A stretch of DNA of 45,616 nt from Bacteroidota bacterium (lineage in GTDB: Bacteria; Bacteroidota; Bacteroidia; UKL13-3), in assembly GCA_947453415.1 (NCBI GenBank), contig CANGGG010000015.1:1-45616 (forward strand). Reading direction: 5' to 3'. Position numbers and translations under genes: made by a program. The notes under the pieces are model-generated. The model had not been told where the DNA came from and searched no databases. It worked only from the letters and a program-made list of their open reading frames with translations. The first letter of the stretch is position 1. Every line of letters starts with the position of its first letter. Positions 5,259 through 10,875 of the stretch are shown here, piece after piece.

Positions 5259-5361
5259 AGATTGGAAGTTTACAAAGATTGAAAGATTTGTCTATTGCCC
5301 TTTGCCTCCTTCGGCAAGCTCAGGATGACTATACTTATCTTCAATCGTTGCCAGCTGCCAG
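5259..5361 (+). repeat. 103-bp direct repeat, copy 1
   Basis: It matches 8466-8568 over 103 bases in the same orientation with three substitutions by eye. It contains the widespread Bacteroidota spacer motif CTTCGGCAAGCTCAGGATGA and ends with GCCAGCTGCCAG. It lies between the OmpA gene and the stop codon of the T9SS-domain protein. Confidence 0.85.
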
Positions 5362-5364
5362 AAG

Positions 5365-7824
5365 CTAGTTGCCAGCAGCCCTTTTTATTATCCTCGTACT
5401 AACTTTTTCGCCTTTGTTGGTTGTAATAATTAGCAAATACATGCCTTCGGTTAGTTCACCAATTTGATACGTGTAAGTTTGAATGCCTTTGGTTTGGTTT
5501 AAGTTTTGGTTCAAAGTTTTGATTATTTTTCCAGTAATATCAGTAATAATAAATTCCAAGTTGCGTTCTTCGGCTAAATCAATTTCAATATTCAAGGTTT
5601 GTTCAGCAGGATTTGGATAAGCCAAATACGAATTTATTTTCCCTGAAATATTTTGGCAAGCTTCAAAATACTTGCAACTTAAAGTAGGTTGATTGGTTGA
5701 AATGGCATTGTATTCTTGCCTAATTTGGTTGGCAATTTCAGTTGGAAGCATACTGAAAAAATCTTCAGTTGGCTCGTACCACATAATTAAATTAAATGGC
5801 TTTATTGTATCGTTAGTTATTGCTTTAACTAATACAGGAATTGCATGTTTAATTCTATTCAATAAAAGTGCTTTGTTTTGAATATTATTTTTTATATCAA
5901 CTGAGAAATTGCTAAAGTTTAAATTGTTATTTCTTAAATAAGCTAAGTCTTCTTTACTGAGTGTTTTAAAAGTTGAGTCAGGAGTATAAGAATGCCAATG
6001 TAAACCGTTTTCACTTGTAACTAATATTGGAGCAACTTTAATTTGAGGACTTTTTTTATAAAACATCATGAAAGACCTAAAAGAATCTCCACCAAGTAAA
6101 AAATCTACACTATCTCCACGTTCAGCTAAAGGTAAATTGTAATACTTTTCTCTAGAAATGCCATCAAAACTCATGCTGCTGCCATTGTTTCCAATTTCAG
6201 TTTGAGTAAAGTTTTTGCCTTTTGAACGTTCTGGAAAACTAATTTTACCAAGCAAACTATAAATATTCAACTTAGCTAAAGCCTCTTCATTTAGTTCCAA
6301 TAAATTTACTTTATTATTAGTAAAAACATTCACATTTGGATTAATAATCCGCTTTAACTTTTCTGTTGGTTCAAACCAAATTATATAATTAGAATCTACT
6401 TTTATGGGAATGAGTTTATTGACGTTTTCTCTGAAATATTTGCTTGCTATTTCATTTTGTTTGGAATGAGGAATGCTGTCTGAAAACTGCATTAGGTAAT
6501 TTATTCTTTTTATTGAATTATCAGTTAAAGCAATTGCAATACAATGCTGATTTTTTGACTTAATCAAATTCCAAATATTCATATTTTCATTTATGTATGA
6601 ATTTCCATTTTTTACTTTAAGTCTTAAAATTTTAGTTTTATTATCGATGTTTTGGTAGCTTTTTAATTTAAACCCATATCTCTTTTTTGTAATATTTAAA
6701 TCTTTCAATTGTTTATCATTTAATTGAATATAATTTCTTTGAAGTCTTGCCACTGTTAAAGAATCAAAACCTTTTTGAATAGATTTTCTAGTAAAACTTC
6801 TGTATTTATACAATATTTTCTTGTACTCATTTTCTGTAGAAGTGCCATATTTATTTATTACTGCTTTTGCAACATCATTACTTAAAGCTTCATAAAATTT
6901 AGGCTCAGTTTTGAACCAAAATATCAATTTCAAATCACTACTATATTTGCTTGGAACTGACTTTAAATGAACCACAATTGGAACCAACATTGATTCCATT
7001 TCTTTTAAGAAATCTTTTTCATAACCAAATCCATTTAAGTATTCAATTAATTGGTGACTGCTGTCTTTTTTATTTGGTGAATTTAAAGCTGTTGGAAAAT
7101 TTAGTATAGAAAGTGATGTAGCCCAAAAATTGACAGAATTTTTTATAATCAATGTGTCTTTTGTATAACTATGATTTGTGGTTCTACTCCCATGTTTTCC
7201 TACTTTTAATGAAAAATATGTTTTGTGTGTTTCTATAATTCCATCATTTTTAAAGTTGAAAAAAGTATCCGTTACATTCTCATATTTCAACACATTTCCA
7301 TCGGTAATAATTCCTAATTTGGCCAACTCTTCGTTAGTTAAAATTAAATAGCCATTTTCATCAAAATAAGTCCGGTTATCCTCCATATTTGTGTCTGAAA
7401 ACTTTGGAGTAGAATTAAATGGTTCAAACAATGGAGCTTCTTGTTTATTGGCAAATTCTTTAGTTGGTTTTGGCTTTTTATTTACCGCTAAAGGACTTTG
7501 CTTTATAGTTAAATCAACCGTTTTATTTTCCTTTGATTCATTGGTTTTTATTGTTGGTTCAGCAATTGTGTTTTGCTTATTTACCACACTTTCTTTAACT
7601 AAAATACTGTTATTATTTTGTGTTGAAGTAGGATAAAATCCTAACCACAAACCTGCTATTACTGCGCATACTACCGACATGATCAAAATGTTTTTTAAGG
7701 TGAAAAATGATTGTTTTTTAACCAATAAATTTTTGTTGCTAATAATGGCAGATACATCGCTTTGGGTTAGTAAAGGATTTTGCTGTTTTGCATTGTTCAA
7801 TAATGTTTCTAATCTATTGCTCAT
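5365..7824 (-). CDS. Membrane protein with anti-sigma-like N terminus and T9SS type A C-terminal domain
   Basis: 819 residues. Residues 1-42 are a short cytoplasmic segment (MSNRLETLLNNAKQQN...) resembling the N termini of Bacteroidota proteins encoded beside ECF sigma factors. A single membrane helix follows (about 43-63), then a low-complexity linker and a large extracytoplasmic region. That region holds three diverged repeats built around IPV.VK...LI.WFEPTE...LP..IA..I..EY and reiterated ELAKLGI/EALAKLNI/EDLAYLRN motifs. The last ~85 residues (AYPNPAEQTLNIEI...DITGKIIKTL...GMYLLIITT) are a T9SS type A sorting domain, here with no cleavable signal peptide. The start overlaps the sigma gene by 11 bases, so the two are probably translated together. 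The tail RAAGN and its stop codon lie in spacer-repeat sequence. Function is inferred from context only. Confidence 0.7.
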   Translation of the reverse strand: MSNRLETLLNNAKQQNPLLTQSDVSAIISNKNLLVKKQSFFTLKNILIMSVVCAVIAGLWLGFYPTSTQNNNSILVKESVVNKQNTIAEPTIKTNESKENKTVDLTIKQSPLAVNKKPKPTKEFANKQEAPLFEPFNSTPKFSDTNMEDNRTYFDENGYLILTNEELAKLGIITDGNVLKYENVTDTFFNFKNDGIIETHKTYFSLKVGKHGSRTTNHSYTKDTLIIKNSVNFWATSLSILNFPTALNSPNKKDSSHQLIEYLNGFGYEKDFLKEMESMLVPIVVHLKSVPSKYSSDLKLIFWFKTEPKFYEALSNDVAKAVINKYGTSTENEYKKILYKYRSFTRKSIQKGFDSLTVARLQRNYIQLNDKQLKDLNITKKRYGFKLKSYQNIDNKTKILRLKVKNGNSYINENMNIWNLIKSKNQHCIAIALTDNSIKRINYLMQFSDSIPHSKQNEIASKYFRENVNKLIPIKVDSNYIIWFEPTEKLKRIINPNVNVFTNNKVNLLELNEEALAKLNIYSLLGKISFPERSKGKNFTQTEIGNNGSSMSFDGISREKYYNLPLAERGDSVDFLLGGDSFRSFMMFYKKSPQIKVAPILVTSENGLHWHSYTPDSTFKTLSKEDLAYLRNNNLNFSNFSVDIKNNIQNKALLLNRIKHAIPVLVKAITNDTIKPFNLIMWYEPTEDFFSMLPTEIANQIRQEYNAISTNQPTLSCKYFEACQNISGKINSYLAYPNPAEQTLNIEIDLAEERNLEFIITDITGKIIKTLNQNLNQTKGIQTYTYQIGELTEGMYLLIITTNKGEKVSTRIIKRAAGN

Positions 7825-8410
7825 ACAATATTCCTTTCCTAATTTTTACGGTTTTCTTTTCATCATTTTCAAGTAGTAATGCCAGTGTTTTTCGCGCTCG
7901 GTGAATATTGGTTTTTACACCATTTACACTTACGTTTTGAATGGCTGCAATGTCTTCCATGCTTAATCCACTTATTTCGTACCAAACTATGGCTTCGCTT
8001 TGCTTAACAGGTAAGCGTTGCAATGCTTTGTTTAGTTCAAATTTCATCAATGAACCTTCGCTGTTTGAATTGCTAGCTGTGTTTTCCATTTTGTTGGATT
8101 CAAACAAACCCCAAAACTTCTTCCGCCTTAGTTTTTTATTTACCAAATTGCTAGCAATACTGAATAAATAACTCAAAAAAGCAGTTTCATTTTGCAATTT
8201 TTCAAAACTTTCAAAAGCCACCAAAACCGTTTCACTTACTACATCTTTTGCTTCTTCATTATCCCAAACCAATGTTTGCACAAACCTGCTCAACCGCGCA
8301 TGCAACGGCTGATACAAACTCATAAAACGATCTTGTTTTGAAATATTTTGTTGCAAATTATTTTTATTAGTTATTTCAGTATGTTGCTTAACTAAGCTAA
8401 AAAGTTTCAA
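7814..8410 (-). CDS. ECF-type RNA polymerase sigma factor
   Basis: 198 residues with the two ECF domains. Region 2 spans about residues 30-100 (SRFVQTLVWDNEEAKDVVSETVLVAF...FLSYLFSIASNLVNKKLRRK). Region 4 spans about 125-185 (ALQRLPVKQSEAIVWYEISG, then the helix-turn-helix LSMEDIAAIQNVSVNGVKTNIHRARKTL). It would direct core RNA polymerase to a private set of promoters. The 3' end overlaps the membrane protein gene by 11 bases, the arrangement of a sigma factor with its membrane regulator. MSLYQPLHARL at codon 30 (8323) is an alternative start. Regulon unknown. Confidence 0.92.
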   Translation of the reverse strand: MKLFSLVKQHTEITNKNNLQQNISKQDRFMSLYQPLHARLSRFVQTLVWDNEEAKDVVSETVLVAFESFEKLQNETAFLSYLFSIASNLVNKKLRRKKFWGLFESNKMENTASNSNSEGSLMKFELNKALQRLPVKQSEAIVWYEISGLSMEDIAAIQNVSVNGVKTNIHRARKTLALLLENDEKKTVKIRKGILYEQ

Positions 8411-8465: not shown

Positions 8466-8568
8466 AGATTGGAAGATTACAAAGATTGAAAAATTTGTCT
8501 ATTGCCCTTTGCCTCCTTCGGCAAGCTCAGGATGACTATACTTCTCTTCAATCGTTGCCAGCTGCCAG
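8466..8568 (+). repeat. 103-bp direct repeat, copy 2
   Basis: Second copy of the 5259-5361 repeat, three substitutions by eye. It lies in the 232-base spacer between the divergent sigma-factor and permease genes. The remainder of that spacer holds GATTGGAAGATTACAAAG-type units and the permease promoter. Confidence 0.85.
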
Positions 8569-8594
8569 CAGTCCTTCCAAACCTTTTATAAAAA

Positions 8595-9963: not shown

Positions 9964-10875
9964 CTATTTTTCCTGTAAAATAGCCTCGTATTTGGTAGCG
10001 TTTGTTATATCTATTTCAGATAAAATTTCCACTATTTTAGGTTTTTCTATTGCAGTAGCGCCTTTATAAATATTGATAATTTCATCACGTTTTGAATCAA
10101 AAAACATTAACAACATCACGGTGTTAGGAGCAATAGCATATACTTTCTTTACCTCTTCAATGGCTTTAAAAATTTGCTTGCGGGCTTCTAAAGGTTTTTT
10201 CTGAAAAATATCCATCCCTTTTCTATGGTAAATATAATAAGCGAGTCTAATGGTTTTAAAACGTTCGTTTAAAATATTATCAATTAAGTTGTACCTAGTT
10301 CTTAAATTTCTACCAAAAGCTGTCCATCCCGCACCACCACTTTTAGCCTGTGCCAACGATAATATTTGTGCTGCTTTATTAAAATAAGGAGTTCCGCTTT
10401 CTTGTCCAAAACTATCATAATCTAAACCCAAACAATAATTACAGTAAAATGCTAAGAGTCCAGTAATTTCAGTTCCATATTGTCCGTCAGTATAATCAAA
10501 ACGTTGTTGGTCGAGGTAAGTAAAATTAAAATTTTCGTCTCTAAAGTTGAGTAAAATGGTATTGTAATTTGTTCCAAAAACTGGTCTTCTACATTGAATC
10601 ATTGCTACCGCAGTAATTTCGCCCGTAGTTTGATTATAAGCTGAGGGAATAATTTCAATTGTTAAATCAAAAAGTTCAGCGGGTAAAACCTTATCAAGAC
10701 TCCATTTTTGAATAGAAATAAATGTTTTGATATCATTTTCTAATCTTCTAAAAATTGATCTATCAGTTATTTCAATTTGATTGTCAGTTACCCTAACTTG
10801 TATATTAAAATCAGGCTGAGCATTAACCAAAAGACTAATTAGTAGTCCTAAAACAAAAAATATTTTACGCATCAA
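9964..10875 (-). CDS. porD: DUF4835 family protein (PorD-like, type IX secretion associated)
   Basis: 303 residues with a signal peptide (MRKIFFVLGLLISLLVNAQ). The body matches the DUF4835 family: FNIQVRVTDNQIEITDRSIFRRLEND at the start of the mature protein, RRPVFGTNYNTILLNFRDENF in the middle and GLDYDSFGQESGTPYF further on. This Bacteroidota-specific periplasmic or outer-membrane family is associated with the type IX secretion system and has been named PorD; its biochemical role is not established. The gene overlaps the 3' end of coaBC by 11 bases. The order bamD-rpoZ-coaBC-DUF4835 is a recurring arrangement in the phylum. The ATG at 10872 (second codon) is an equally good start. Confidence 0.82.
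   Translation of the reverse strand: MMRKIFFVLGLLISLLVNAQPDFNIQVRVTDNQIEITDRSIFRRLENDIKTFISIQKWSLDKVLPAELFDLTIEIIPSAYNQTTGEITAVAMIQCRRPVFGTNYNTILLNFRDENFNFTYLDQQRFDYTDGQYGTEITGLLAFYCNYCLGLDYDSFGQESGTPYFNKAAQILSLAQAKSGGAGWTAFGRNLRTRYNLIDNILNERFKTIRLAYYIYHRKGMDIFQKKPLEARKQIFKAIEEVKKVYAIAPNTVMLLMFFDSKRDEIINIYKGATAIEKPKIVEILSEIDITNATKYEAILQEK

Follow-up and report, generated by a model that had tools for sequence, protein, structure and literature searches.

A candidate membrane anti-sigma factor of Bacteroidota with a type IX secretion sorting domain at its C terminus

The C-terminal tag of the type IX secretion system (T9SS) normally marks proteins for export by that system. What, then, is such a tag doing at the end of a predicted membrane protein encoded directly behind an ECF sigma factor? 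This question is raised by a two-gene locus in a 45,616-nucleotide stretch of DNA from a Bacteroidota bacterium (contig CANGGG010000015.1; the window), the features of which are collected in Table 1. How the state of the T9SS is sensed in Bacteroidota is poorly understood; if the C-terminal domain (CTD) of a membrane-tethered anti-sigma factor served this end, secretion or outer-membrane state would be coupled directly to transcription. The analysis suggests that the CTD is probably part of a signalling device and not a chance tail, because the combination recurs across the phylum and because the tag is unusually well preserved. No anti-sigma factor ending in a T9SS CTD was found described in the open-access literature searched, which does not prove priority.

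Table 1. Features of the sigma factor/partner locus (positions in the window; residues are those of the partner protein).
Feature	Position	Strand	Basis
Direct repeat copy 1, 106 bp, bracketing the two-gene cassette	5259..5364	.	Sequence comparison
Direct repeat copy 2, 106 bp, 96%	8466..8571	.	Sequence comparison
Membrane anti-sigma factor candidate, 819 aa, T9SS type A CTD at its end	5365..7824	-	ORF, family models, structure model
T9SS type A C-terminal sorting domain, residues 735-815	5380..5622	-	PF18962/TIGR04183; beta-sandwich in model
Cys pair C717/C723 (CKYFEAC) directly before CTD	5656..5676	-	Recurs in relatives
Extracytoplasmic module 3, residues 502-716	5677..6321	-	Repeat alignment
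Extracytoplasmic module 2, residues 360-503	6316..6747	-	Repeat alignment
Extracytoplasmic module 1, residues 154-345	6790..7365	-	Repeat alignment; model pTM 0.66
Predicted disordered periplasmic tether, residues 65-148	7381..7632	-	pLDDT ~30 over 64-148
Transmembrane helix, residues 43-64, N-in	7633..7698	-	Hydropathy, model helix 43-63, charge
Cytoplasmic segment, residues 1-42, candidate sigma-binding domain	7699..7824	-	Two predicted helices; alignment
Sigma/partner gene overlap, 11 bp	7814..7824	-	ORF coordinates
ECF sigma factor gene	7814..8356	-	Sigma70_r2 + r4_2; listed ORF reaches TTG 8410
ECF-type promoter before sigma gene	8376..8406	-	AACTTTT-N18-TACTGA; conserved in homologues

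The sigma factor matched Sigma70_r4_2 (1.2e-14, 54.1 bits), Sigma70_r2 (1.3e-8, 34.9 bits) and TIGR02937 (69.1 bits), all three above cut-off, and with regions 2 and 4 only and a length of 180-198 aa it is of the ECF type (sigma-70 group 4). Whereas the family models uphold the sigma factor gene recognized in an earlier note on this DNA, its 5′ end at TTG 8410 probably does not hold: TTG 8356 is the likelier start, giving 180 aa as in the congener, because a conserved ECF-type promoter lies within the longer extension and the congener alignment agrees. The boxes of this promoter (−35 at 8400-8406, −10 at 8376-8381) are discernible as AACTTTT-N17/18-TACTGA ahead of 10 homologous sigma genes, in some with small departures. 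A strict version of the pattern had a single occurrence each in the window's genome and that of the congener G003, both at this sigma gene. A relaxed version gave three sites in the window's genome, compared with 12 in a reversed control; two of the three fall on coding sequence, and the only non-coding one is again the sigma gene's own promoter. Hence no regulon could be named from the motif. The sigma-specific promoter upstream of T9SS genes that the earlier note had proposed to look for was not found, as no T9SS gene lay behind the motif in this search of the window's genome.

Both open reading frames are present and overlap as had been described. Hydropathy shows a sole strong hydrophobic segment in the partner (residues 46-64), and the charge flanking the helix, +4 before and 0 after, indicates that the N terminus is cytoplasmic. 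Inspection by eye revealed no type I cleavage motif behind the helix. The view that the partner has a short cytoplasmic N terminus, one membrane helix and no cleavable signal is thus borne out, the last point by eye. A gene beside a sigma gene, a single N-in transmembrane helix and a conserved cytoplasmic N terminus together make up the layout of a membrane anti-sigma factor. The N-terminal segment, in which the AlphaFold2 model places helices at residues 3-13 and 21-31, aligns in 29 sigma-linked partners (motif LxxLFxxARxxxPxxxxxEV), CTD-bearing and CTD-less ones alike, and is the candidate sigma-binding domain. Searched against the PDB, a profile of this region matched no known anti-sigma structure.

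Behind these two helices, the model (mean pLDDT 57, nine sequences) predicts the transmembrane helix (43-63), disorder (64-148), three alpha/beta modules and a beta-sandwich (730-815). The three modules can be aligned to one another as well as to those of relatives (EELxxLGI ... LIPIxV ... FWFEPT). Those of the window protein had no Pfam match, and the modeled fold of the repeated unit gave no Foldseek match under 0.001 and at best a VIA-align Z of 3.8 (model pTM 0.66); the three copies represent a new extracytoplasmic module. The Cys pair behind them stands at the same place in ∼16 of 25 CTD-bearing partners.

That the partner ends in a canonical T9SS type A domain was confirmed by matches to PF18962 (residues 735-812; 4.8e-13, 49.6 bits, cut-off 27) and TIGR04183 (1.8e-12, 47.1 bits, cut-off 23); its predicted fold is an Ig-like, seven-strand beta-sandwich. 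The protein thus shares with T9SS type A cargo a C-terminal sorting domain scoring above both cut-offs. Unlike cargo, it has no discernible cleavable Sec signal peptide; instead, 42 cytoplasmic residues of a conserved N terminus precede an N-in helix. The window's genome contains 113 CTD matches, among which that of the partner scores mid-range, and 11 clear sigma matches, none of the other 10 with an adjoining CTD match. With such numbers, a single adjacency is weak evidence; recurrence of the pairing across families, therefore, is what indicates more than chance.

Recurrence was assessed in a census of loci retrieved by a sigma profile, blind to the C terminus of the partner (except G094, which came from a partner search); the profile itself was made from the first pairs, which had been found through the partner. 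In this sample of genomes, 25 of 47 complete partners carried a terminal CTD, 19 had none, and three ended in F. The CTD passed the Pfam cut-off in 21 of the 25; the other four (G592, G460, G571, and G522) were called with a home-made HMM, G571 and G522 weakly. The bearers represent approximately ten families, namely, the window's own, three more in its class and six or so outside, and occur in at least one other class (class membership being taken from kinship labels). An ECF sigma gene followed by a transmembrane protein with a T9SS CTD is therefore a recurring arrangement, and homologous partners do not consistently lack the domain, the finding that would have spoken against a cargo-domain-based sensor. 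Mapped onto the sigma tree, the CTD label required seven changes, compared with 16 in shuffles. As the CTD-less partners keep the sigma factor and the N terminus, the CTD appears to be dispensable for some members of the group; tether length did not differ between partners with and without it. The three F-ending partners, in which the F follows a stretch that looked possibly barrel-like by eye, fall inside a CTD-bearing clade of the sigma tree (support 82/88), and an amphipathicity test did not support a barrel.

Several partners deviate in their composition. In those of G667 and G675, from a class other than the window's, the transmembrane helix and the CTD are separated by a TonB C-terminal domain (62 and 72 bits; L177 2397-4331, minus strand; L178 679-2682, plus strand). 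Since this is a periplasmic domain, it points to a periplasmic location. In L184 (750-3083), the partner has a second, internal CTD-like copy at residues ∼400-477, perhaps from duplication of a module-plus-CTD unit; the domain can therefore apparently double as a plain beta-sandwich module.

If the CTD were an ordinary export tag, it should evolve like one. Between the window's partner and that of G003, conservation is highest in the CTD (93% vs 61% identity; dN/dS 0.046); the non-CTD regions are 33-80% identical, the modules 33-75%, and the tether 35% (dN/dS 0.70). The partners of G667 and G675 behave alike, with a CTD that is 92% identical (dN/dS 0.041) and a remainder at 46-63%. CTD identity exceeded that of the body in 10 of 10 pairs with at least 33% body identity and, when reduced to independent pairs, in six of six. 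Ordinary cargo behaved in the opposite way: in 11 of 12 reciprocal-best pairs between the window's genome and G003, the CTD (30-78% identical) was less conserved than the body, a control drawn from two genomes of the window's own genus only, with some cargo bodies incomplete at the edges of the fetched sequence. The contrast between sigma-partner and cargo pairs gave a one-sided Fisher p of ∼4e-4 (calculated by hand). The anti-sigma candidate thus shows the reverse of the cargo pattern. Strong conservation of the CTD could, however, also arise if the domain contacts the modules of its own protein instead of the T9SS.

Sigma-partner CTDs also differ from cargo CTDs in kind. An HMM built on CTDs of partners outside the window's class ranked the nine partners of that class 1-7, 9, and 14 of 79, most of the 70 cargo CTDs of the comparison set falling below them. 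In the reverse direction, with an HMM from the window's class, 13 of 16 partners from other classes outranked every one of the 17 cargo CTDs (p 2e-6). An Arg at the motif-E position was found in 22 of 25 partners, compared with 10 of 70 and 2 of 17 cargo CTDs (a simple count of the end pattern). By these sequence comparisons, sigma-partner CTDs are a phylum-wide subfamily, recognized reciprocally across classes, and the rankings and the Arg bias point to long co-inheritance of the CTD and the anti-sigma body. A CTD that belongs to a subfamily of its own and is the slowest part of its protein, whereas most cargo CTDs evolve faster than their bodies, offers a testable handle on the function of the domain.

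How these parts might work together is best considered beside two known systems. Dma anti-sigma factors of Bacteroidota consist of a sigma-binding segment, a transmembrane helix, a disordered tether and an outer-membrane end, which is a C-terminal beta-barrel; their partner sigma factors belong to group ECF21 (PMC13088901). The window partner resembles them in its phylum, its sigma-adjacent gene, an N-terminal segment with putative sigma binding, one transmembrane helix, a long disordered tether (as judged from model and alignments) and a C-terminal end related to the outer membrane. It differs in that its tether is followed by three folded modules, and in ending in the seven-strand PF18962 sandwich of a T9SS type A sorting domain where Dma has its barrel. 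Anti-sigma factors reaching toward the outer membrane would thereby be extended past the beta-barrel kind. In Porphyromonas gingivalis, SigP is an ECF sigma factor that has the CTD protein PorA upstream of it in the PorXY-SigP pathway of T9SS regulation; PorA has a signal peptide, is located at the cell surface and signals by way of a two-component system, and several free CTDs, that of PorA among them, bind PorV (PMC7712824). In P. gingivalis as in the window, a CTD-containing protein is linked to an ECF sigma factor; in the window, the CTD shares a polypeptide with a candidate sigma-binding domain and a transmembrane helix.

The explanation favored here, which could equally well turn out right or wrong, is that the locus encodes an ECF sigma factor together with a trans-periplasmic anti-sigma factor whose specialized CTD engages the T9SS or the outer membrane and thereby gates the sigma factor. 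The two-helix cytoplasmic N terminus would hold the sigma factor; the protein would pass the inner membrane once and span the periplasm with its disordered tether and repeated sensor modules, presenting the CTD at the outer membrane as its outer contact. Once the CTD engages the T9SS machinery of the outer membrane, in the way that free cargo CTDs bind PorV, or ceases to do so, the state of the tethered protein would change and free the sigma factor, which would then activate its own operon from the conserved promoter. The pairing, overlap, topology features, tether, modules, promoter, and the CTD with its conservation and subfamily support this explanation at the level of sequence; binding of the sigma factor, engagement of the CTD, the direction of the signal, the step of release and the regulon are presumed. 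The more far-reaching version, that a T9SS sorting domain, once an export tag, long ago became the part of such a factor that receives the signal, tying transcription in Bacteroidota directly to T9SS engagement through a tethered read-out with no need for a two-component relay, is put forward tentatively and with some doubt. The earlier proposal that the CTD is read functionally, its engagement or proteolysis releasing the sigma factor, is partly supported: architecture and recurrence speak in favor, and the unusual CTD conservation and the phylum-wide subfamily fit a functional role of the CTD, but no T9SS gene turned up behind the promoter motif in the search of the window's genome.

Alternatively, the T9SS might simply export the C-terminal part. 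The protein would then extend through both membranes, as Dma does, with the modules as a cell-surface sensor and a signal unrelated to T9SS status. The Dma-like order of parts (PMC13088901), a tether of ∼85 residues, in the model long enough for crossing the periplasm, and the position of the three F-ending, by eye barrel-like partners in a CTD-bearing clade would suit such surface delivery. It is nonetheless rather unlikely: cargo anchored in the inner membrane would remain threaded in the translocon, the amphipathicity test lent the barrel no support, two partners bear a periplasmic TonB domain, and a mere delivery tag would be expected to evolve fast, as in cargo, and not to be the slowest part. 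Given the TonB domain of these partners and how slowly the CTD evolves, a report of T9SS engagement, or anchoring of the sensor, is favored over surface delivery. The role of the CTD may be plain anchoring at the outer membrane.

The domain might also never contact the T9SS and be kept as an Ig-like structural module within a periplasmic sensor, a reading to which its sandwich fold and the internal copy in L184 lend themselves, and in which packing beside the Cys pair could explain the strong conservation. Yet in every Pfam-tested bearer, the terminal copy sits at the extreme C terminus and ends in the canonical basic tail, the genomes examined do encode T9SS cargo, and the window's CTD scores like an average member among the genome's 113, all of which make this an improbable account. 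Finally, the abundance of CTDs in the genome might have allowed a chance fusion of ordinary cargo to a sigma-adjacent gene, or the protein might be cargo that is set free by cleavage of an extended signal peptide. However, the pairing recurs over many families when searched by the sigma factor alone, the N-terminal segment is conserved with no visible cleavage motif past the helix, and the sigma-partner CTDs form their own subfamily; either version would be very surprising, and simple capture of a cargo CTD by chance was ruled out by the census and the HMM test.

The two-gene cassette lies between the direct repeats of Table 1 in the window and, in G003, between copies of an unrelated direct repeat of 135 bp (92%; L052 4704-4838 and 7905-8038); no further full-length copies were seen in the 203 kb and 789 kb examined. 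Its gene neighbors vary among three congeners, and the cassette thus seems to relocate. In the window, the gene for the T9SS protein PorD (9964-10875, minus strand; NF052317, 274 bits, cut-off 170) stands two genes upstream of that for the sigma factor, which has other neighbors in G003. Related sigma factors can have short partners: those at L046 2026-2490 and L047 2028-2531 (154 and 167 aa) finish in repeated DYNNI-like motifs past the transmembrane helix and tether. One locus, L151 (G047:C61:48500-55500), contains two adjoining paralogous sigma/partner pairs, one partner with a CTD and one without.
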